IMG/VR virus record: IMGVR_UViG_3300040801_004939
Span: 1 to 29,855 of that record
Direction: 5' to 3' (one strand)
DNA from: a virus
Length of the DNA stretch: 29,855 nucleotides
The translations under genes were made by a program, and so were the position numbers. Positions 1,976 through 29,855 of the stretch are shown piece after piece; position 1 is the first letter of the stretch, and every line of letters starts with the position of its first letter. A model generated the notes under the pieces. The model was given only the letters and a program-made list of their open reading frames with translations, searched no databases and was not told where the DNA came from.

Positions 1976-4900
1976 TTATTTCATCCATTGGTTAAATTCA
2001 GAGGTTAGACCCTGATCTTTGGTAGTCATCTCTGGCAAGTACGTTTCCAAAAGCTCAATAATTGTTCCCAGCTCAGTCCCACCGTCACCCATAACAGTCA
2101 TTTTTTCATTGATACCACGCAAATTGGTGACCATCTCCGACAATAGAATAGTATGCTGATCCAGTATACCAGCATCACCTTCCGTCTTATCCATTACTTG
2201 TACCGTCGTGATGGTTTCAGACCGGACCGCATCTTCCAAACCCTCTTCCCTCGCAGTAGCCATGGCCGGTTGAGCCTTAGAAACAACAGCAAGCTCAATC
2301 CGTTGAGCGGTTCCCTCCAACAGACTTGTATATTTCTCCAACATAGACCCAAGTCTGTCCATATCACCTTGGACCATCAGGCCCTGGCTACCAATATTAG
2401 CCAAAGCCCCACCAAGTTCCTCCAGGCTAGCAGAAATCTCACGTACCGGTTTCACAAATTTGTCCGCCGCAGATTGGAAAAGACCCGCCGACTTATCTAG
2501 TTCACGTGCGAGTTTATTCACATTCGGTATCGCATCTAACGCAGCACCAGCCGCATCCCCAATAGAATCGATCGGAGCTTTACTCAAGACCTCAAAAGAA
2601 GCGGCGAACAGATGCATACCCCTACCCATCTGTTCAATATCGGTGACCGAAGACTTAAATCTCTTGGTAGCTGATTCAAGCCAAGTCATTCCCCTATAAA
2701 TATCCATAGATGCAGGACGCAACCAAATAGCTGCTTTACGCAAAATCGATGCTGCTGGTAATAATAAGTTAGCACCTATTTGTAATCCAATAGAACCATG
2801 TTGAATCCTCGGAGCAGACACCATCATAGCATTACCAGCAGACAAAAGCTTCTGACCAGATTGGTCCAGATCATCCGCTGCTGTCTTAATATCAGTGGCA
2901 CCCTTGGCAAGACTCTTACCAGCAGACGCTATCCTACCACCGGCAAAAGCAAAAGCAATACCAATAAATGCGAACGCTCCAGTAGCATAACTCAATGGCC
3001 CAACCGATTGAAGAAGTAATATCCCACCTTTAGCCAAATCCCTAGCTATCTCTTCAAGCTTGATATCCTTCAATTCTTGTGCACCCTTACCCAATGACGC
3101 CAGACCCTTACCAAGAATGAAAGCACCAATCCCAACTATCGTGGCACCAGCAACAAAAGTAAGACCAGCCAAAGTAAGGTATATCCCACCAGCAGCCAAT
3201 TGATATGCTATCTTGGCGAAATCAACACCCTCTAACTCTTGTGCACCTTTACCCAAAGCCGATAAACCATGACCCAAGAGAAGTGCACCGACACCAACCG
3301 CAGCAGCACTGATAGTGAAAGTAATAGCAGCGAACATCAAGAAGACACCACCAGCGGCCAAATGGGCAGACATAGCTGCAAAATCAACACCGACTAATTC
3401 TTTCGCACCCTTGCCCAGAGCAGACAAACCATAACCTAGAAGAATCGCACCGATACCAACTAAGGATGCACCAATAAAGAAAGATAATGCAGCAAAACTT
3501 AGATAAATACCACCTATTGCTAATTGGCCAGCTATACTAACCAAATCCACACCCTGGAGAGCTTTAGCACCTTCTCCCAGCGACTTCAACCCAATACCAA
3601 GTATCCAAGCACCAGCACCAACCAAAACCGCACCAATCATAAACACCGTAGCCGCCACAAGCAATGCTGGAGCAGCAATAGCCATAGCAATAGATACACC
3701 AATTATTATAGCCACTACCGGAATCAACATAACCGACGCTTGAAGCATATTCCAGGCAAGATCACGCACACCCTCACCAAATGCCTTCATCGCCTCAGGT
3801 GACAACATACCTAAAGCATTAGACACATTCTGCATCGCAACACTGATCACCACCAATGGGACAACCAGAAGCCATAAAGCACCAGCCAACATCATAAGAC
3901 CAGCAAATCCAGCTATACCAGCCAAAGCCAACATGGTAATACCCCATGCCAAAGCTGGTAATGCCGCAGCAGCCATCAACCCGTATATTGCTATTGATTC
4001 TATAGATAATCCAACAAAGTACATCCCAAGCCCAGCCAACAACGCTGCCGCACCCAATATTAGTACGGCAGCGGCTAGAGCAACAATAAGTGGTATAGCG
4101 GGAGCAGCAACAGTAGCAATAATAGCGAAAACAATAATAAATGTCAACATTGCCGCAGACATAGCGACAAGCATACCAAACGCAGCCCAGCCATGTTCGG
4201 CTGCCGCCTTCAACCCCATCCCCATCAACCAAAAGCCAGCACCAACCAAAAGCACCGCAAGGCTAAGCTGCATTAACGGAATAATAACTGATTTAACCGA
4301 ACTTCCCAAAGCCCTAAGGCCATTACCGAGACCAGTTAGAACAACCTCTATAGATGTACCAATAGCCTGTGCGATCGCTATAATCGCTTTACCGACACCT
4401 TTAATAATATTGAGACTACCTAACACTGCCTTGGATACGGAGCCAAATGCAAAAGCAAATGATGCTAAAGCTACACCAGCACTAACCAGAATTATGACCA
4501 ACCCAATAAGTAAACCACCCACAAATCTGATGGCTTTCATGAGCAAACCGAATCCCGGAATCCATTCCTCCATCCACCCAATGGTTGATCGGATCATTCC
4601 GATGAATACTCCAACCACTTGGATAACGAAGTTAAGGACATAAAGAACCGGAATAAGTGCGTCCGCCACCATCTGAACTAGCCAACCCACAATACCAGTT
4701 ATAGCTGATCTCAATCGGTTTAACTGGGCGGTAAGAGTAGCCATACTCTCCCGCCATCGCTTGTCGGCATCCAATTGATTGCGGAAGGTTTCTTCCAGCC
4801 CAGCCATTGTGAGGAATTGCCTTTTTTGCTCATCTGTCAGATTAGCTTCCGCACGAGCCATCATATAAAGTTGATCGGTAGTAATCCCGAATTTTTCTGT

Positions 4901-6214
4901 TAGCTTCGATAATGCGACGGCATCATCGCCAGTCACTTTTTCGAGGCCAAGCATCTGCCTCTCTGTGATCCCAAGCTCATTGACAAAGCCAGCAGCCGCC
5001 GAACTCATCGCTTCGAATTTCTCCGTTATCGTGGCGTCTGCACTAATCCCGGCAAAGCCCTCCCAGAAAATTGCTGCTTTAACACCTGTTAGTTGCAATG
5101 TTTTGAGCCAATCATCGGCTGCTTTTTGATTAACACCCAGTTCTTTTGCCACACCTCGAAGACCAAGGCCAGCTTTCATAAAGGCTTCTGGAGCATCCTT
5201 CCCAAAGTAAACAATTTGCTCTTCCATCGAGAGATTGTTGGCTTCCAATGCTTTTTGCATATCATAAGTGCTCAACCCAAATGCCCGTTGAGCCGCAGAA
5301 AGCATATCGATTTGCTTTCTGGTTCTAGACGCATCAAAACCAGCACCACGCAATTCGCGAGTATATCCGGCAATCTGATCGATACCAACACCAGTTACCC
5401 GATTCGCCCTGCCCACAGTGGCCGACAATTTATAAAGCTCTTCACGCGGAGTCTTGACATCCGCCAACGCCTTATACGTGGCGAGAGCTTCTTCTCGAAA
5501 AATCCCAAATTCTACGGATAATTGCCGGGTATTATTGACGAGCTTCTGTTGTGAGCCATATACACGATAATTCGCAGTTACAAACTTCTCTGTTTCCTTA
5601 TCGAATTGTTCGAGCAGCGTCAAAATCGATCCCATAGTGATTTTGATCTGCTTTAGAATATCTCCAGAATCGATTTGTTTCGTCTTAACCTTTTCCCATT
5701 TATTACCCATTCCTTCGACTAGACTCTGTTCGGCCTTAATCATCTCACCTTCTTTATCGTGGATGAGATTCTTTCCCTCCAGCGTTTTCACCAGACGACC
5801 GATAGTGCCGAGATACTCCTCCCCTATTTTCTGCTCTTTTTCTAGTGATTTTTCGATCTTGGATTGGAGATCTTCAATATCTTCAATATATTCTAATCGT
5901 TCTTCAAGATCCTTCAAGCTCTCCTGTTCGGTATCGTAGGAGTCCTTGAGAGAGCTAGCCACGCTGGTTAATTTGCTTTCCACATCGGTTGCCACATTGG
6001 CAAATTGTCCGGTGGTAATAACCGCCTGAGACAACTGTTGGTTCAGGCTATCGATGAGGCCAGAGATGGCGTTGATAGAATTCTTTGCAGCAGTGGAGAC
6101 ACGTTCTTCCACATTTGCTGCGGCCTGACTGAATTCCTCTAGAGTAGAGAATGCGTCAGAGGATTCTAATTGTAAGGATATGCTGAGAGCATATACATTG
6201 GGGTCTACTGCCAT
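1976..6214 (-). CDS. Tail tape measure protein
   Basis: At 1412 aa this is the longest gene in the window. Residues ~15-230 are heptad-rich and charged (coiled coil). Residues ~230-510 are mixed helical. Residues ~510-1090 are a very long run of Gly/Ala/Val/Ile/Leu hydrophobic segments interrupted by short polar turns. Residues ~1090-1412 are again helical and polar, ending in FNQWMK. This layout is characteristic of tape measures, which fill the tail tube, set its length and insert into the host membrane on ejection. By the rule of thumb of ~0.15 nm per residue the tail would be about 210 nm at most. The ATG at 6214 has AAGGATC just upstream. Position after tube and chaperone genes and before baseplate genes supports the call. 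It contains 54-residue internal repeats (separate entry). Confidence 0.9.
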   Translation of the reverse strand: MAVDPNVYALSISLQLESSDAFSTLEEFSQAAANVEERVSTAAKNSINAISGLIDSLNQQLSQAVITTGQFANVATDVESKLTSVASSLKDSYDTEQESLKDLEERLEYIEDIEDLQSKIEKSLEKEQKIGEEYLGTIGRLVKTLEGKNLIHDKEGEMIKAEQSLVEGMGNKWEKVKTKQIDSGDILKQIKITMGSILTLLEQFDKETEKFVTANYRVYGSQQKLVNNTRQLSVEFGIFREEALATYKALADVKTPREELYKLSATVGRANRVTGVGIDQIAGYTRELRGAGFDASRTRKQIDMLSAAQRAFGLSTYDMQKALEANNLSMEEQIVYFGKDAPEAFMKAGLGLRGVAKELGVNQKAADDWLKTLQLTGVKAAIFWEGFAGISADATITEKFEAMSSAAAGFVNELGITERQMLGLEKVTGDDAVALSKLTEKFGITTDQLYMMARAEANLTDEQKRQFLTMAGLEETFRNQLDADKRWRESMATLTAQLNRLRSAITGIVGWLVQMVADALIPVLYVLNFVIQVVGVFIGMIRSTIGWMEEWIPGFGLLMKAIRFVGGLLIGLVIILVSAGVALASFAFAFGSVSKAVLGSLNIIKGVGKAIIAIAQAIGTSIEVVLTGLGNGLRALGSSVKSVIIPLMQLSLAVLLVGAGFWLMGMGLKAAAEHGWAAFGMLVAMSAAMLTFIIVFAIIATVAAPAIPLIVALAAAVLILGAAALLAGLGMYFVGLSIESIAIYGLMAAAALPALAWGITMLALAGIAGFAGLMMLAGALWLLVVPLVVISVAMQNVSNALGMLSPEAMKAFGEGVRDLAWNMLQASVMLIPVVAIIIGVSIAMAIAAPALLVAATVFMIGAVLVGAGAWILGIGLKSLGEGAKALQGVDLVSIAGQLAIGGIYLSFAALSFFIGASLVGIGAILLGYGLSALGKGAKELVGVDFAAMSAHLAAGGVFLMFAAITFTISAAAVGVGALLLGHGLSALGKGAQELEGVDFAKIAYQLAAGGIYLTLAGLTFVAGATIVGIGAFILGKGLASLGKGAQELKDIKLEEIARDLAKGGILLLQSVGPLSYATGAFAFIGIAFAFAGGRIASAGKSLAKGATDIKTAADDLDQSGQKLLSAGNAMMVSAPRIQHGSIGLQIGANLLLPAASILRKAAIWLRPASMDIYRGMTWLESATKRFKSSVTDIEQMGRGMHLFAASFEVLSKAPIDSIGDAAGAALDAIPNVNKLARELDKSAGLFQSAADKFVKPVREISASLEELGGALANIGSQGLMVQGDMDRLGSMLEKYTSLLEGTAQRIELAVVSKAQPAMATAREEGLEDAVRSETITTVQVMDKTEGDAGILDQHTILLSEMVTNLRGINEKMTVMGDGGTELGTIIELLETYLPEMTTKDQGLTSEFNQWMK
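3060..3610 (-). repeat. 162-bp tandem repeats inside the tape measure gene
   Basis: Four copies of a 54-codon unit are visible at protein level, at about residues 870-1060. Each has a conserved turn, LGKGAKEL-GVD, followed by a Gly/Ala/Val hydrophobic hairpin. At DNA level the turn recurs near 3081, 3242, 3404 and 3566, which is a constant 162-nt step. The copies have drifted in sequence but not in length, so the frame and the length increment are preserved. I read these as duplicated hydrophobic modules that lengthen the tape measure. Confidence 0.8.
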
Positions 6215-13676: not shown

Positions 13677-14282
13677 TTATACCAGACCAGCAGGGTTGAT
13701 GCCTGGTGGGGCCGTTGGATTACCATAATTAATGGCTAGATCTGGTCCGGTACCCTCCCAGCCTTGCTCTTCTTCTGCCCAATCATAAGTCACTGTTACT
13801 TCGACTATCTTGACATCACTAGAAGTATAAGTTAGTTCGCCATGCCGGATAACAGATGGCCATGAACCTATAAGTTTCCAATTTGTTGCTTTATCCTCTT
13901 CCCAAGTCGGTGGATAAATTAAGAGCCTGGAATTGCGTTTATACCTTTCGGCAAGTTTCAGCCCTTCAGCCGCTGTCCAGACACGTTGTCTCCAACCTTT
14001 CAAGATGCGGATCAACCCTACTGTATCATAAAAAGTGACTTTCACATCGTCGTAAGACACACTTTTGGCGAATTTATATTCGAGACTAGCACCTTGTTGC
14101 ATTTCTATACCCACAGAGAACGTGGGGGTAGTGAGTTCTTTGGCATGCACAAGTAAAGGCTCTTGAGTCTCAAAAAGCTCGAAAATCTCCCAAGTGTAGG
14201 TATATAGATATTCTTGAGTTGCCGTTGCTGTCCGCATACCAGCCATACCGCCAAAATTTTGACCTACAGCAAAACCGGGCAT
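13677..14282 (-). CDS. Tail tube protein paralogue C (gp19-like)
   Basis: This encodes 201 aa starting MPGFAVGQNFGG, the same PGF start as the other two tube genes. It keeps the gp19-type plan: an N-terminal strand (YLYTYTWEIFELFE), a threonine-rich TTPTFSVGIEM strand, a VKVTFYDTVG strand, a central helix, and the terminal WKLIGSWPSVI...GELTYTSSDVKIVEVTVTYD that gp19-fold proteins use for ring contacts. It is divergent from copies A and B, so it is likely a minor tube ring, perhaps at the baseplate or neck end. The ATG overlaps the preceding TAA by 1 nt (TAATG) with GAAGAG upstream. A C-terminal Gly/Pro tail follows the fold. Confidence 0.75.
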   Translation of the reverse strand: MPGFAVGQNFGGMAGMRTATATQEYLYTYTWEIFELFETQEPLLVHAKELTTPTFSVGIEMQQGASLEYKFAKSVSYDDVKVTFYDTVGLIRILKGWRQRVWTAAEGLKLAERYKRNSRLLIYPPTWEEDKATNWKLIGSWPSVIRHGELTYTSSDVKIVEVTVTYDWAEEEQGWEGTGPDLAINYGNPTAPPGINPAGLV

Positions 14283-14866
14283 TATGTTCTTTTCTCTTCA
14301 GCTTTGTTAAATCGGAGGGTCACTGTAATTGTGGCAATATCGGAATCAGAATATGACAATTCAATCGGCGATACTTTCTGAGGCCAACAATCATATAAGT
14401 AATATGACCAAATAGGGTGACCCACACCATCAAGCATTTGCAACACCGCCGATTTATAATAATTCGTTACTCTATTATGTGTTGATCTAGTGAGGGCAAT
14501 CATTGTTTGCCCCCACCACGAATAAATTCGTTCCGCTACTTCGTCAACTCTATCGTCGGCCTTTTCGTAAAATGTAAATTCAATTGGACTCCAACGTTGT
14601 TTACCTGGGCGGTATATCTCGTCTTGTGCGTTATGGATCGTGATTTCATCAACTTCAAGTGTTGGACGAGTACATTTCTCCAAAAAGAGTAGAATACCAT
14701 AAGAATCCGAATAACCAAATGGTTCAAGCAATTCTAGACGAAATCGGTGTTTGCGGGCGGTCTCTGATAGATATGTAGGCCCTAGGAATGCCGCTTGTTC
14801 TGTGAAAACATCGGTTGATAATCCACAACCCGGAGCCGGTAGATTTGGTATGTTGAATCCTGGAAT
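14282..14866 (-). CDS. Tail tube protein paralogue B (gp19-like), ATT start
   Basis: This encodes 194 aa. The only ATG/GTG/TTG-type start in this frame is a TTG at 14731, which would remove the first 45 residues of the fold. Upstream, the frame continues as IPGFNIPNLPAPG...ARKHRFRLELLEPFGY, closely matching copy A (PGFNINPF...RKHRWVFETLG). A TAG lies 12 nt before the ATT at 14866-14864, and AGGTG sits 6 nt before that ATT. The best start is therefore ATT, at the position where A has GTG and C has ATG. The rest fits the gp19 fold (PTLEVDEITI, PIEFTFYE, LQMLDGVG, WPQKVSPIELSYSDSDIATI). Confidence 0.72.
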   Translation of the reverse strand: MPGFNIPNLPAPGCGLSTDVFTEQAAFLGPTYLSETARKHRFRLELLEPFGYSDSYGILLFLEKCTRPTLEVDEITIHNAQDEIYRPGKQRWSPIEFTFYEKADDRVDEVAERIYSWWGQTMIALTRSTHNRVTNYYKSAVLQMLDGVGHPIWSYYLYDCWPQKVSPIELSYSDSDIATITVTLRFNKAEEKRT

Positions 14867-14968: not shown

Positions 14969-15571
14969 TTAGACATTCTGCGGACAATTCGGTTGAATCG
15001 GCACAGGGGCAGGTGCCTGAACGCAAGAACCATCAGATTTGGCTCGGACTGCACGATCGTATCGCATAGTCGCTTCACAGGTCATCAGGTCAGTAGAACT
15101 ATAATCTAGTTCTTGCCAATTACAGGCTGCTGGCCACGTACCCATCATCGACCATTGCTCATTTGCTTGACCAGTACCATCCAGCATGAGCAATGCGGCA
15201 GTTCTCTTGTAAAACCGAGGATGAGCAACCGCAATCGATTGCATATTCACCACAGTCTCAATCCAATGATAAATACCGCGCGAGATATCTGGGTCTTGCT
15301 CGACATCATACCATACCAAAGTCACAGGGTCCCAGTCTTGCTTACCGGCGAACCGTGCGACCTCTTGATTATGGTGCATTTCCGGCTCTTCGAATTTGAA
15401 GCTTGGCCGGGAAGCTGATTGGAGCACGAGCAACTCGGATTGCGAGAAGACACCCGTGCCGCGACCCAATGTCTCAAAAACCCAACGATGTTTACGGCGA
15501 ACCTCAACAGTATTCGCTGGGCCTTGGGCGGAAAAACCTCCACCAAATGGGTTAATGTTGAATCCTGGCAC
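14969..15571 (-). CDS. Major tail tube protein (gp19-like), paralogue A
   Basis: This encodes 200 aa starting at GTG (15571) with a strong GGAGGA 6 nt upstream; the N-terminus is MPGFNINPFGGGF. Gp19-type features are the RKHRWVFETLG strand, SASRPSFKFEEPEMHHNQEV, DPVTLVWYDVEQDPDIS, a helix before LLMLDGTG, and WPAACNWQELDYSSTDLMT followed by a final strand. It stacks as hexameric rings inside the sheath. It lies directly after the sheath and is followed by a hairpin, which is why I take it as the abundant tube subunit and the other two paralogues as minor. The Pro-rich C-terminus (APAPVPIQPNCP) is an added tail. Confidence 0.85.
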   Translation of the reverse strand: MPGFNINPFGGGFSAQGPANTVEVRRKHRWVFETLGRGTGVFSQSELLVLQSASRPSFKFEEPEMHHNQEVARFAGKQDWDPVTLVWYDVEQDPDISRGIYHWIETVVNMQSIAVAHPRFYKRTAALLMLDGTGQANEQWSMMGTWPAACNWQELDYSSTDLMTCEATMRYDRAVRAKSDGSCVQAPAPVPIQPNCPQNV

Positions 15572-24916: not shown

Positions 24917-25315
24917 TTACAGGTCTGGTGTCAGGTCGCGAGCGTCTTGATGGAGATCGCCGGTTAGACCAGCAACTGTGTTCTCCATGAACTTGTCGTG
25001 ACCGATTTGGAAAGCGAAATCAATGTCGGTCAGATTCGTTTGGGCATTCGCGAAGGAAACTTGGTCCTTCAGGCCGATAACAATCGGGAATCCGCGAGTC
25101 GCGTTGTGGCGAGCCTCGCCCATATACGGGCTGAAGTCCGACACACTCGTATCGCGAGTCTTCACCTCGACCAAGATCTCGTCCGCAGGGATGCTCATGA
25201 CCAGCGGACGGAGCCGTTTGATCAAGGCGGCTACGGACTCGTGCCTATGCCCTTGCCGGAACGACCGAATTCTTCGGTGAACCCGAATGTCGGTGTTTGC
25301 GGGTTGTGCAGCCAT
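24917..25315 (-). CDS. Unknown protein in its own late cassette, 132 aa
   Basis: I do not recognise this protein. It begins with a basic segment (RVHRRIRSFRQGHRHESV), continues with a helix and a strand (ALIKRLRPLVMSIPADEILV) and later FPIVIGLKDQVSFANAQTNL followed by FAFQIGHDKF. There is no signal peptide or membrane segment. The ATG has AAGGAG 10 nt upstream. It is bounded by the promoter-like element shared with the sheath gene and by a strong hairpin, so I infer an abundant late, possibly virion, protein (for example a capsid or tail decoration subunit). Codon choice looks more GC-rich than in neighbours, consistent with high expression. Confidence 0.72.
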   Translation of the reverse strand: MAAQPANTDIRVHRRIRSFRQGHRHESVAALIKRLRPLVMSIPADEILVEVKTRDTSVSDFSPYMGEARHNATRGFPIVIGLKDQVSFANAQTNLTDIDFAFQIGHDKFMENTVAGLTGDLHQDARDLTPDL

Positions 25316-25402: not shown

Positions 25403-25699
25403 CTAACGGCAGCAAGCACGGCCCAAGTTCCTACCAAGATACCAACCTCCGTTGGTCGCCGCAGCCTGCCTTCTACGGATCAACGACTTACCAGGATACC
25501 AACGCACGCCAGCACGAGCGGCATGGCAAATACCCGCTTTCTGCACACACGCAGCTTGCCCAACAGCAACCACGACACGAACAGGGGCTGTCACAACGCG
25601 GCATACCTTCCCGTCGCAAACAGTTCCAGCCTGAGTATCCGGTACCAAAAATAGTACCATACCCAACACGATAGCAACAATCAGCAACATCCGAACCAT
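25403..25699 (-). CDS. Small exported cysteine-rich protein, 98 aa
   Basis: The N-terminus is a clear Sec-type signal peptide: a short basic n-region (MVRM), a hydrophobic core (LLIVAIVLGMVLFLV) and a likely cleavage site after DTQA. The mature ~74 residues are basic with six cysteines (VCDGKVC, AACVQKAGIC, ACC), an even number that suggests disulphides outside the cytoplasm. I do not recognise a family. The ribosome binding site is very strong (AAGGAGG, 5 nt before ATG). It lies 17 nt after gmd, so the two are probably co-transcribed. Exported phage proteins of this size may act in superinfection exclusion, lysis or envelope change; none is shown here. Confidence 0.68.
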   Translation of the reverse strand: MVRMLLIVAIVLGMVLFLVPDTQAGTVCDGKVCRVVTAPVRVVVAVGQAACVQKAGICHAARAGVRWYPGKSLIRRRQAAATNGGWYLGRNLGRACCR

Positions 25700-25716: not shown

Positions 25717-26694
25717 TTAGACCGACAAACTTTCTAGTTCACTGAGGTCACTATCGACCATCAATTGAACTAATTCTCGGAAGCCAACTTCAAGCTCCCA
25801 CCCCAACTCTTCCTTAATTTTACTCGCGTCCCCGCAAAGAACATGCACCTCAGCAGGCCGGTAAAATTTTGAGTCTATTTCTACGTACTTGTTCCAATCT
25901 AATCCAACATGGCCAAATGCACAATCCAAAAAGTCTCGAATACTATACGTTTCACCAGTAGCAACCACATAATCCTTAGGTTCAGCACCCTGGAGCATGA
26001 GCCACATCGCACGAACATAATCCCCGGCAAAACCCCAATCACGCTTGGCATCAAGATTCCCAAGACGCAACTTGTCTTGTTTCCCGCACACAATTCTCGC
26101 CACAGCATTCGTAATTTTCCTGGTTACAAATTCCAACCCTCGTCGTGGCGACTCATGGTTGAATAGAATGCCAGATACACAAAACATATCATAACTCTCA
26201 CGGTAATTTACCGTTATCCAATGCCCATAAAGTTTAGCAACTCCATATGGACTACGAGGATAAAACCGAGTCTGCTCATTTTGTGGGCTATTGGCCACCT
26301 TTCCAAACATCTCGCTAGAACTAGCTTGATAAAATTTGATCGATTTATCCACATGTCTGATAGCATCAAGAAGCCTTGTTACTCCAAGTGCCGTCATATC
26401 CCCAGTCGCAACCGGTGAATTCCAACTTTCATGAACAAAAGATTGAGCGGCCAAATTATAAACTTCGTCGGGCCGCACATCCTGAATAAGACGCAATAAA
26501 GAACCAGAATCTGTCAAATCTGCTGGATGAATAGTAATTAATTGGGTGATATGATTAATTCTGTCCAGCCTAGGCATACTACATCGCCGAACAACCCCAT
26601 GAACTTCATACCCCTTGCTAAGTAAGAATTCAGCGAGATATGAACCATCTTGCCCTGATACCCCAGTAATCAACGCTTTTGGCTGCTTCGACAT
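25717..26694 (-). CDS. gmd: GDP-mannose 4,6-dehydratase
   Basis: This 325-aa short-chain dehydrogenase/reductase converts GDP-mannose to GDP-4-keto-6-deoxymannose, the precursor of GDP-fucose, GDP-rhamnose and GDP-perosamine. Visible motifs are the nucleotide-binding [15 protein letters not shown] (11-25), VRRCS for NADP(H) recognition, SSSEMFG (125-131) with the catalytic Ser/Glu, [10 protein letters not shown] with Tyr150 and Lys154, NHESPRRG, and [11 protein letters not shown]. All catalytic residues are present and the length is close to but shorter than E. coli Gmd (373). No GDP-fucose synthase or glycosyltransferase is adjacent, so the sugar may be finished by host enzymes or by genes outside the window. 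It likely alters host surface polysaccharide or glycosylates a virion part. Confidence 0.93.
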
Positions 26695-26777: not shown

Positions 26778-27770
26778 CTAATGGATTGTACCGGCCATCC
26801 ATTGGCCGTTGACAACTTTTCCACCGTTCAGAACAACGGTTTCTACCGATCCTCTAAAGTGCCGAAGATCATAGGGAATCCACCCGCACTTAGTATAGAT
26901 CTGACGACCATCTATGGCGGGTTTGTTGAAGGCAAGCACGGGGATATTTGCCTTATAACCTTCCTTAATTCTACCTATCATCAGAGGTGTATCAGATATC
27001 CACAAAGACGGATTGAAACAAGCAGCCCTAAAGATGACTTCTGGCGGAACACCTTCTTCAATCAACCACACCATCATAGAGCCAAACGTATCTAATTCCG
27101 GAACGCCACTCTCGGGATCTAATAAACTGCGTGGTGTGTGCCCGCTAGAAATAATATCAATATGCCCTTCAGCAAATGCTTGCAACAAAGCTTTGCGTTT
27201 GTCTGACGAACGCAAAGGTGGATTAGTTCGCAAAGATCGTTCATTCTCCGCTGTTATCATCGATGTATCAAAATACAAGTTTATCGGATGAACCTCCGAA
27301 AAGACGTATAGGCCCTCTTTCTTCGCTTGCCGGATTAACTCCAATTCTTCAACAGTTGATATAATTATCCTAGACCTCAAGTTATACGTTTTAGTCGCCT
27401 GGATGATGGTTTTAGTATATTCAATTGATTTAGATATATTGAATATCATGCTTGAATGATCTGTGAAATCGACAAGATCACCAGGCTCGACATAAATACC
27501 ATAATTAATAATCGACGTAACACCACCATTCGACGCCGCCAAGCGCTCTGGGATTCTCGCATAGAGATCAATAAAGCCTGGAAAAATAAGGAATTCAGGA
27601 ATCCCTCGTTTGCCCTCATAACTACCAAAACTCAATACCTCTCTGGTTGACCCACAAGGTTGGCTCCTATCAATATGGCGTATGAATGACGCAATATGAT
27701 CATCCTCGATAGTAATACAACCTGGATGAACACCATCTTCCTCAACAACTGCACCGTGTATTACTAACAT
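26778..27770 (-). CDS. Dihydroorotase-like amidohydrolase without catalytic residues
   Basis: This encodes 330 aa, short for the family (~420). The dihydroorotase/amidohydrolase framework is clear: PGFID (64-68), NGGVTSIINYG, SEVHPINLYFD, NPPLRSSDKRKALLQAF (183-), GHIDIISSGHTPRS, a helix before NPSLW, then IGRIKEGYKANIPVLAF and VLNGGKVVNG. The metal site is gone. The HxH after PGFID is Y70-A-R72, the HHL motif is INL (163-165), and the catalytic DHAPH is GHTPR. It therefore cannot be a normal zinc dihydroorotase. In some bacteria inactive dihydroorotase homologues are structural partners of aspartate transcarbamoylase; such a role here is speculation. It overlaps the upstream 234-aa gene by 7 nt. 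Confidence 0.78.
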   Translation of the reverse strand: MLVIHGAVVEEDGVHPGCITIEDDHIASFIRHIDRSQPCGSTREVLSFGSYEGKRGIPEFLIFPGFIDLYARIPERLAASNGGVTSIINYGIYVEPGDLVDFTDHSSMIFNISKSIEYTKTIIQATKTYNLRSRIIISTVEELELIRQAKKEGLYVFSEVHPINLYFDTSMITAENERSLRTNPPLRSSDKRKALLQAFAEGHIDIISSGHTPRSLLDPESGVPELDTFGSMMVWLIEEGVPPEVIFRAACFNPSLWISDTPLMIGRIKEGYKANIPVLAFNKPAIDGRQIYTKCGWIPYDLRHFRGSVETVVLNGGKVVNGQWMAGTIH

Positions 27771-28468
27771 CTTAGTCCGTCTGGTAATAATTCATTCGGG
27801 ATTGATTTGAGGCGGCTGAAAATAAATCTAGCTGCTGTTAAAACTTGTTCTTCAGATGCTTCCCAACGCAAAGTATTTTCTGGATTCACCATCGGTTCCC
27901 AGGTTTTGATAATATTCAACAAGTCGATTTCGCCACCTTTTTGTTTTTTACTTAACACGACCTGCAGTAAATCTTCGACGTATCCACTATTGTCTGAATA
28001 GACTTGACCATACTCAATATGTGTTGGTCTGTATTCTAACAAATGCTCAGCCACAAGGACAGCCGCAGCACCTGCGGAAAATACCTTTATCTTTATGCTA
28101 TCAGCAGGTAATATTTCACCAGACTTCCAACCGAGAAGACGCATCACACTGCGGTAGAAACTGTAATAAGAATCTGGTTCACTGTTGGCCACAAAATCAT
28201 CAATACTATATTGACCCTTGAACCAATCCAACAACTTCAACATATCGTCGTGCTTATTTACGACATATGGAGAAGTCGCTACCATCAATGTGGCTTCTTC
28301 ACCGGGCCTACAGAAATGAAAACGCCCGGCTACAGAGAGATATCCGTCTGGAATGATGATATGATCACTCTTAGAAGGATAATCTAAGAAATCCATATGA
28401 ATAGTAAAACCGCAGGACCGGTCAGAAGCCCGGTCCCGCAGTTCTATTCGAACAGGAAGTTTAATCAT
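27764..28468 (-). CDS. Unknown protein between ligase and the amidohydrolase-like gene, 234 aa
   Basis: I do not recognise this protein. The N-terminus is beta-rich (IKLPVRIELRD, CGFTIHMDFLDYPS, HIIIPDGYLSVAGRFHFC). The middle and end are helical (MLKLLDWFKGQYSIDDFVAN, EDLLQVVLSKKQKG, EEQVLTAARFIFSRLKS). There is no signal peptide or membrane segment. The ATG overlaps the ligase stop by 4 nt (ATGA) and the stop overlaps the next gene by 7 nt, so the three genes are tightly coupled and probably expressed together. A link to ligase or to the pseudo-dihydroorotase is suggested by this coupling only. Confidence 0.7.
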   Translation of the reverse strand: MIKLPVRIELRDRASDRSCGFTIHMDFLDYPSKSDHIIIPDGYLSVAGRFHFCRPGEEATLMVATSPYVVNKHDDMLKLLDWFKGQYSIDDFVANSEPDSYYSFYRSVMRLLGWKSGEILPADSIKIKVFSAGAAAVLVAEHLLEYRPTHIEYGQVYSDNSGYVEDLLQVVLSKKQKGGEIDLLNIIKTWEPMVNPENTLRWEASEEQVLTAARFIFSRLKSIPNELLPDGLRC

Positions 28469-29855
28469 TCGGCGATTTCTGCTGCTAAAGCATCCGTATC
28501 AATCTCAGGCCGCTCAATATTGGTGGTGGCGACGACCGGAGTGGTATCGTCAAGACTAGCCTTACCAGCCAATACTTGCTTTAGATACTCTAGCGATATA
28601 ATCCGAGTGTGGCCGTTTGCCTCCGCATTTTGCGTTTTATTCGATGTGCTCAGCGGGTCCTTCTGCACCAAAAAATCAGGAGAAGGTTTTGATTTGGCCA
28701 CGCTATTCTTGATCGTCGCACCGAGCCTTTGTACCTCTTCGATGAATTCGCGTGTCCCGGTAAAACAGAAAGAAACGTCCTGCAATGACGCATTATCGTT
28801 CGATTCCGCTTTGGCGACAGGCATCTTGATTGTAACACCGACTTCGATCAACTTCTCAATCAAAGCACGATTGGTATCAATTCCATCGCGAACCGCCAAA
28901 CGAATAGTATCTCCAAATCCTTCGACTTGAATCCGCGCCAATTTGGCATCGTCAAGCCAATCATCCAAAGTATCGAGTTCGCCACTAGCAGCTTCCTGCA
29001 AAATCTGCACACGACGTCGCCCTAGCAACTCGATACCAAGAGAACCCAAGAAAACAGGCAATGTCAGATCCCTCTTGGCGGCAATGTTGTTGACAATCTC
29101 GGTCGCCCGCGATTCACCGATACGACCGCCACCGTTCATTTCCAGGTTCTTGATTTGATCAACGGTCATTGTGTAGAGATCAGCCGGATCGCTGATGATC
29201 TGTGCGTCCCACAAAGTCCGCAAAATCGTATCACCAATACCTAGGATACCGACTCCCTTTTTGGATGAACCAATCCAGTGGTCGATCTTTTGCAGCATTT
29301 TTTCAGGGCAAGTTGGGTTGGTGCAGAATACCACAGCACCATCTTTTCCACGGAGATTACGCGTTGTCGGATCACCGCAAGATGGGCATCGCTTCGGTTC
29401 CGGAATCTCTTGACGATTGTCGCCTTTAACGACGACACGGATAATCTTCGGTATGATATCACCAGCCAAGACAACCTCGACGGTATCGCCGATAGCGACC
29501 CCGAGCCTTCCAATTTCATCCCAGTTATTCAGCAACGCATGCGTCACATTCACGCCACCAATCCGCACTACTTGCAGGTTTGCGGTTGGAATGATCGCAC
29601 CAGTATGACCAACGGTCAGATCAACACTTTCCAAGATCGTCTTGTTGGATTTGTGCGGGAACTTGATCGCTCTCGCATATTTCGGACGAAGGCGAGTTTT
29701 GGTATCACTTGTGACGAATTGGTCTTGCTGGTCCAAAGAATTGAGACAGACCACCACACCATCAATCTCGAATGGCAATTGATCACGCTGATCGACTGTC
29801 TGCGAATAGAACTGTTCTATATCAATAGTCGATTCGCAAACGCGATATGGGACCG
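28465..29855 (-). CDS. ligA: NAD+-dependent DNA ligase, C-terminal part (partial)
   Basis: The gene enters from the right edge; 462 codons are visible. It opens inside the adenylation domain (motif IV region LPFEIDGVVV, motif V YARAIKFPH with its Lys). It continues through the OB-fold (VGHTGAIIPTANL, GDTVEVVLAGDIIP), a four-Cys zinc finger (CPSC...CTNPTC), helix-hairpin-helix repeats (LEMNGGGRIGESRA; LGRRRVQILQ) and a BRCT domain (VSFCFTGTREFIEEVQRLGA). A short acidic tail follows. The enzyme seals nicks using NAD+. Motif IV, normally DGVVIK, here reads DGVVVC, so the Lys that is important in E. coli LigA (K290) is Cys. The active-site Lys motif lies outside the window. It leads a tightly overlapping operon. 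Confidence 0.93.
   Translation of the reverse strand, partial: VPYRVCESTIDIEQFYSQTVDQRDQLPFEIDGVVVCLNSLDQQDQFVTSDTKTRLRPKYARAIKFPHKSNKTILESVDLTVGHTGAIIPTANLQVVRIGGVNVTHALLNNWDEIGRLGVAIGDTVEVVLAGDIIPKIIRVVVKGDNRQEIPEPKRCPSCGDPTTRNLRGKDGAVVFCTNPTCPEKMLQKIDHWIGSSKKGVGILGIGDTILRTLWDAQIISDPADLYTMTVDQIKNLEMNGGGRIGESRATEIVNNIAAKRDLTLPVFLGSLGIELLGRRRVQILQEAASGELDTLDDWLDDAKLARIQVEGFGDTIRLAVRDGIDTNRALIEKLIEVGVTIKMPVAKAESNDNASLQDVSFCFTGTREFIEEVQRLGATIKNSVAKSKPSPDFLVQKDPLSTSNKTQNAEANGHTRIISLEYLKQVLAGKASLDDTTPVVATTNIERPEIDTDALAAEIAE

Follow-up and report, generated by a model that had tools for sequence, protein, structure and literature searches.

A dihydroorotase-derived pseudoenzyme with a trimmed barrel in one group of large myophages

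In the CRMP/DPYSL proteins of animals, which are dihydropyrimidinase pseudoenzymes, a non-catalytic cyclic-amidohydrolase fold serves binding; these proteins have a complete barrel and are tetrameric. Dihydroorotase (DHO) has inactive derivatives of its own. DHO subunits bind aspartate transcarbamoylase (ATCase) in Aquifex and Pseudomonas, and in Pseudomonas an inactive pDHO is required for ATCase activity (PMC7053772; PMC3880350). The pDHO (PyrC') of Pseudomonas and Acinetobacter is full length and encoded beside pyrB, and resembles the phage protein described here in being DHO-derived, in having lost its metal ligands and in a non-catalytic role. As for the DHO-like domain of the fungal CAD-like/URA2 protein, its zinc ligands and substrate residues have been lost with the fold retained (PMC7053772). 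Unlike the phage protein, that domain is full-size and resides within a eukaryotic multienzyme. In the open literature that we searched, no phage DHO pseudoenzyme was reported.

The stretch of DNA that we analysed (the window) is a 29,855-bp IMG/VR record with a myovirus gene set that includes a 955-aa sheath, three tube paralogues and baseplate genes. Four of its genes are at issue:

26778..27770, minus strand: DHO-derived pseudoenzyme of 330 aa (open reading frame, homology, family and tree)
27764..28468, minus strand: gene X, 234 aa, overlapping upstream partner in 5/5 lineages, with no Pfam or PDB-fold match
28465..29853, minus strand: C-terminal part of an NAD-dependent DNA ligase, with an ATGA overlap with X; a context gene that does not always accompany the module
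25717..26694, minus strand: GDP-mannose 4,6-dehydratase (GMD), the downstream flank in most relatives

A sequence-only reading had described 26778-27770 as a clean open frame related to dihydroorotase, and both points hold. The frame is open on the minus strand from its ATG at 27770 to its stop at 26778. A phmmer search of the PDB sequences matched the protein to dihydroorotase 3gri (1.9e-11), and the NCBIfam model TIGR00857 (pyrC_multi) matched it at 2.2e-26 with 92.8 bits, far below the family cut-off of 279 bits. A profile of 4 phage homologues found the Methanocaldococcus jannaschii DHO 7uof (2.7e-34) and 3mpg (3.3e-29), both over almost the full length. The homology of the window protein to DHO spans both the sandwich and the barrel; a Pfam search did not recognise it.

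Single-protein IMG/VR scans with the DHO-like ORF and with gene X found no relatives, which were reached only through the ligase and a conserved gene at 24917-25315. The ligase pointed to a phage genome of 408 kb (IMGVR_UViG_3300000976_000008, hereafter G001) with a syntenic DHO-like homologue of 291 aa, and the conserved gene led to 29 related loci, all metagenomic. The latter gene had no homologue in a catalogue of 50,697 phage records, so that the group seems to be recorded in metagenomic data alone. Its product of 132 aa, 73-88% identical in most of the 29 loci, would be a good marker for this uncultured large-myophage group. The DHO-like gene is carried by five syntenic lineages of the group, namely the window and four further ones: G001, L018/L021/L022, L031/L032/L036, and L182 (IMGVR_UViG_3300045256_000294, 137 kb), the sheath of which shares 74% identity with that of the window. 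L016 and L025 also belong to the family. The proteins measure 441 aa in L182, 413 aa in L032, 330 aa in the window and 306 aa in L018. As in the rest of the phage pseudo-DHO family, X lies upstream in the window with overlapping frames, ahead of the block formed by GMD and gene 24917.

Two remote DHO-like proteins of 324-325 aa (L030 and L035; profile matches of 1.6e-8 and 4.5e-6) match amidohydrolases only weakly when taken by themselves, and we set them apart as remote members that carry little weight in the argument. Their genes, which are without X, lie beside glycosyltransferase genes (L030 3190-7062, L035 1-2398), at the position that GMD occupies in the other phages. Other candidates were rejected. 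Most tblastn matches among 'phages' were unannotated faecal or wastewater fragments with an ordinary bacterial-type DHO, and one was an Acinetobacter pyrB-pDHO locus; all of these are presumably host DNA. The phage-like contig G002/L011, with an intact PyrC and a PyrD-like gene, is another phage with a DHO of another clade. At 5339-7489 of L011 (IMGVR_UViG_3300025117_000177), the PyrD-like gene directly follows PyrC, and a dCMP-deaminase-like gene is also present; by their predicted products, these genes are phage-borne pyrimidine steps.

The motifs of the former active site map as follows in the window:

27555..27563, minus strand: Y70-A71-R72 in place of the strand-1 HxH metal site (alignment)
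27276..27284, minus strand: I163-N164-L165 in place of the PHHL motif (alignment)
27129..27143, minus strand: G210-H-T-P-R214 in place of the DHAPH catalytic Asp motif (alignment, tree and column count)

The replacements of HxH, HHL and DHAPH had been read correctly from the sequence, and the accompanying claim that all catalytic and metal positions are substituted is borne out, with each of them either replaced or deleted. Also missing, by replacement or because they fall in the deleted stretch, are the histidines of HxxT and HCED and the carboxy-Lys position. Among nine catalytic or substrate columns, defined as invariant in 10 cellular DHOs and one phage DHO (L182), the window and G001 keep 0/9 each and L018 keeps 1/9. 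In the type-I DHO of Aquifex, the alpha-zinc ligands are His61, His63 and Asp153, with Asp305 next closest, and that enzyme can do without its beta-site histidines (PMC3880350). Neither the two strand-1 histidines nor Asp305 have a counterpart in the window protein, which has thus lost even the most economical metal site. Judged from its sequence, it is a DHO-derived pseudoenzyme.

Two full-length phage homologues bracket the loss. L182 has an intact site, with the motifs HTH, R, MPNN, YKAFIG, HCED, HVST and DHAPH, and its nine catalytic columns read H, H, R, N, K, H, H, D, H. L032 is dead, with NTH, MPDN, YNVYMG, HCE, QVST and SGHAPH, and its columns read N, H, R, D, N, H, Q, G, H. The Asp-to-Gly change at DHAPH is common to all four dead phage lineages; the earlier suggestion was to look for homologues in other phages with the same substitutions, and this key loss is indeed shared.

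In a maximum-likelihood tree, the nearest neighbours of the phage clade (support 100/99) are active-site-intact Patescibacteria DHOs and an intact provirus-like copy, and the phage and Patescibacteria-type DHOs form a joint clade (100/100). The nearest cellular group is the archaeal/Patescibacteria clade of active type-I DHOs (PyrC; L079 from Ca. Doudnabacteria, L159 and L160). The full-length phage forms share 41-46% identity with the Patescibacteria-type DHOs, and their conserved segments come in the same order. In contrast to the active type-I enzymes, the window protein is devoid of the nine catalytic or substrate residues and of about three barrel strands, the phage proteins have a DLR/KxVxG C-terminus, and the phage gene lies outside a pyrimidine operon. 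Of the same clade is an intact DHO, 45% identical to L032, at the end of a provirus-like contig with tail genes (L183 7833-9107; IMGVR_UViG_2547132368_000002), where it may be a host gene or cargo.

Within the phage clade, the dead forms group together with L182 outside (94/86), and the trimmed forms are nested inside the dead group (94/82). As Asp-to-Gly is found in 4/4 dead lineages, the simplest history would be a single loss of catalysis with trimming afterwards, the support of the relevant node being 94/86 and not 100. Trimming after this loss would have taken at least one event, and probably two. The inactive pDHO from the Acinetobacter pyrB locus (L007) lies in the opposite half of the tree, with its long branch as a caveat, which indicates an independent origin of the phage pseudoenzyme; the catalytic Asp has become His in pDHO and Gly in the phage form. 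At the sequence level, the transition from an enzyme to a trimmed pseudoenzyme is documented at one phage locus. Pseudoenzymes are usually visible as end points only, and here the same locus has an intact-site form, a full-length form that is dead and three that are trimmed, so that the order in which catalysis is lost and the fold is then cut back is open to a direct test by expression.

The trimming centres on one feature of the window protein:

27441..27506, minus strand: residues 89-110, a low-confidence loop that replaces barrel strands 3-5 (AlphaFold2 pLDDT < 50; L032 alignment)

The alignment with the full-length phage homologue L032 leaves a gap of about 85 residues, located between strands 2 and 6, and the missing stretch would carry the carboxy-Lys and HCED ligands. 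With strand numbers inferred from the order of motifs in type-I DHO, the central deletion removes strands 3-5 in the window and strands 3-6 in L018 and G001. The AlphaFold2 model of the window protein, built with 12 sequences, is of moderate quality (pLDDT 75, pTM 0.81), with a well-predicted N-terminal sandwich, barrel strands 1, 2, 6 and 7, a weak strand 8 and no structure over residues 89-110, where the deletion lies; it does not form a complete eight-stranded barrel. The view that the fold-defining motifs are kept is not upheld in that form, three barrel strands being absent and the fold incomplete. A Foldseek search of the PDB matched the model to allantoinase 3hm7 (8.8e-19) and to the DHOs 2gwn (1.6e-17) and 4yiw (3.3e-17), with TM-scores of 0.69-0.73 by query length and an rmsd of 6-7 angstrom, as expected of a barrel with a missing segment. 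CRMP/DPYSL proteins are also among the Foldseek matches; they are derived from dihydropyrimidinase, not from DHO. For an eight-stranded barrel to lose three or four strands under continued selection is unexpected for the fold.

Is the gene under selection? In the ten cellular DHOs and L182, 59 columns are invariant, 9 of them catalytic and 50 other. L032 has lost 5/9 catalytic columns vs 4/50 of the others (Fisher p 0.002), and among the columns present in the window 0/7 catalytic ones are kept vs 33/43 of the others (p 0.0002); alignment columns are not independent, and these p-values are descriptive. The frames are open in every lineage, with pS of 0.67-0.78 and pN of 0.36-0.46 between pairs of main lineages, such that synonymous sites are near or at saturation and dN/dS among these lineages is unreliable. 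Third codon positions are the most variable in all pairs. The last quarter of the protein holds all eleven positions that are invariant across the five phage sequences and not in cellular DHOs, including:

26862..26870, minus strand: D301-L302-R303, invariant in 5/5 phage proteins including L182, where cellular DHOs have E-G-x

This C-terminal constraint is common to intact and dead forms, which suggests a second, non-catalytic role older than the loss of catalysis. The pair formed by the DHO-like gene and X is 28-43% identical between lineages vs 56-88% for most flanking structural genes, a fast divergence that would also fit relaxed constraint. The central proposal of the sequence-only reading, a DHO-derived pseudoenzyme kept by selection, is nevertheless upheld by frames open past synonymous saturation and by losses concentrated at catalytic columns. 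On these comparisons, a non-catalytic role of the phage pseudo-DHO is well supported.

Gene X and the DHO-like gene overlap by ATGTTAG in the window, by TAATG in L018 and L032, by TGATG in L182 and by 26 bases in G001. Scanning the collection for X and, independently, with the DHO-like profile gave identical contigs except for one contig-end fragment. The association has exceptions, as a relative of X is present without a DHO-like gene in L033 and the remote genes of L030 and L035 have no X. The structural model of X is confident (pLDDT 86); fold searches with it yielded no significant match in the PDB or among viral structures, and Pfam, PADLOC and fold searches found no function for X. Co-transcription with the ligase and an unknown gene, as proposed earlier, stands in part: the frame overlaps (ATGA, ATGTTAG) agree with it, but the ligase does not always adjoin the pair. 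Only the window and the L031/L032/L036 lineage have it directly upstream, and it lies elsewhere in the 408-kb genome. On the other side, an 83-bp gap with promoter-like sites precedes GMD, which is thus probably outside the operon. Relatives with the same structural block but no DHO-like gene, such as L027 and L017, have the ligase and GMD nearly adjacent. In two lineages, similar homing-endonuclease-like ORFs sit between the DHO-like gene and GMD (L016 8440-9240, L018 7715-8698).

We propose that an ancestor of this large-myophage group acquired an active archaeal/Patescibacteria-type DHO gene, which would have been placed directly behind X, overlapping it. In one branch, catalysis may have been lost once, with the Asp-to-Gly change and the loss of metal ligands. 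From then on, the dead protein would have persisted in a role other than catalysis, with trimming of the barrel following in later lineages. The likeliest role is that of a binding scaffold working with the X protein, the two being co-produced via their overlapping frames, and the target might be a host or phage factor that differs between lineages. A selected non-catalytic scaffold or binding protein working with X is the best explanation in our eyes, and a reasonably probable one. Its basis lies in the homology, the loss of the site, the order on the tree, the frames open past saturation and the overlap with X. The partnership with X is the likeliest one given gene order and overlap; a physical complex of the two, and any target together with its identity, are inferred. 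It is tempting to speculate that the DHO fold bound X before catalysis was lost, and that, barrel strands having become dispensable after the loss, X completes or stabilises the partial barrel, which would act on a host target specific to each lineage; we offer this more specific version tentatively. In any case, phage biology gains a coupled two-gene module, X and pseudo-DHO, to test.

Alternatively, the phage protein might be a decoy or scaffold for the host ATCase that alters pyrimidine flux, in the manner of the inactive Pseudomonas pDHO. The binding of DHO subunits to ATCase in Aquifex and Pseudomonas, and the need of the Pseudomonas enzyme for its pDHO, lend this idea some appeal (PMC7053772; PMC3880350). 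Searches for OTCace_N (ATCase) and DHO_dh (DHODH) gave 0 matches in 14 phage records of the group, some of them possibly fragments, with positive controls detected in 14/14 genomes. The searched records thus show no sign of a phage pyrimidine pathway to regulate; host enzymes might still be regulated, and an ATCase target would be the host's. We nonetheless find this role unlikely, as the known pDHO is far off on the tree and full length, whereas three phage lineages are without barrel strands. Moreover, the constant partner is X and not a pyrimidine gene, and the cellular DHO relatives adjoin pyrD and carAB in the examined MAGs, whereas the phage gene does not.

An accessory structural protein of the virion or its assembly, encoded within the head and tail block, seems more doubtful. 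The surrounding gene order is conserved and the neighbours include sheath, tube, baseplate and adaptor-like genes, but L027, L017 and other relatives with the same structural block have no DHO-like gene, and the block also holds non-structural genes (ligase, GMD, homing-type endonucleases). Still less probable is a different chemistry, in which a rebuilt pocket (e.g. Y70/R72/H211) would support a new metal-free activity or small-ligand binding. The amidohydrolase superfamily is chemically versatile, and His211 and a PPL segment are conserved across the four dead lineages; however, the former pocket residues vary among them (Y/G/G/N; R/T/Y/H; R/Y/H/H), unlike a conserved new active site, and the pocket-forming strands are absent in 3/4. 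Least credible of all is a functionless dying gene open by chance in this genome, which progressive shortening, fast divergence and absence from several relatives might suggest, but which sits poorly with open frames in all lineages despite synonymous sites at or near saturation (even the remote L030 and L035, 70% identical, have a dN of 0.215 with synonymous sites saturated) and with losses concentrated in catalytic columns while the remainder is kept.

Several other genes of the window deserve mention. The product of 1976-6214 is a 1412-aa baseplate-region protein with no convincing family match. A small ORF at 25403-25699 has a signal-peptide-like start and a cysteine-rich tail, and similar short, secreted-looking, fast-changing ORFs precede gene 24917 in several relatives. 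Finally, the three tail-tube paralogues lie in tandem (13677-14282, 14282-14731 and 14969-15571) beside the unusually long sheath, and all match phrog_4542.
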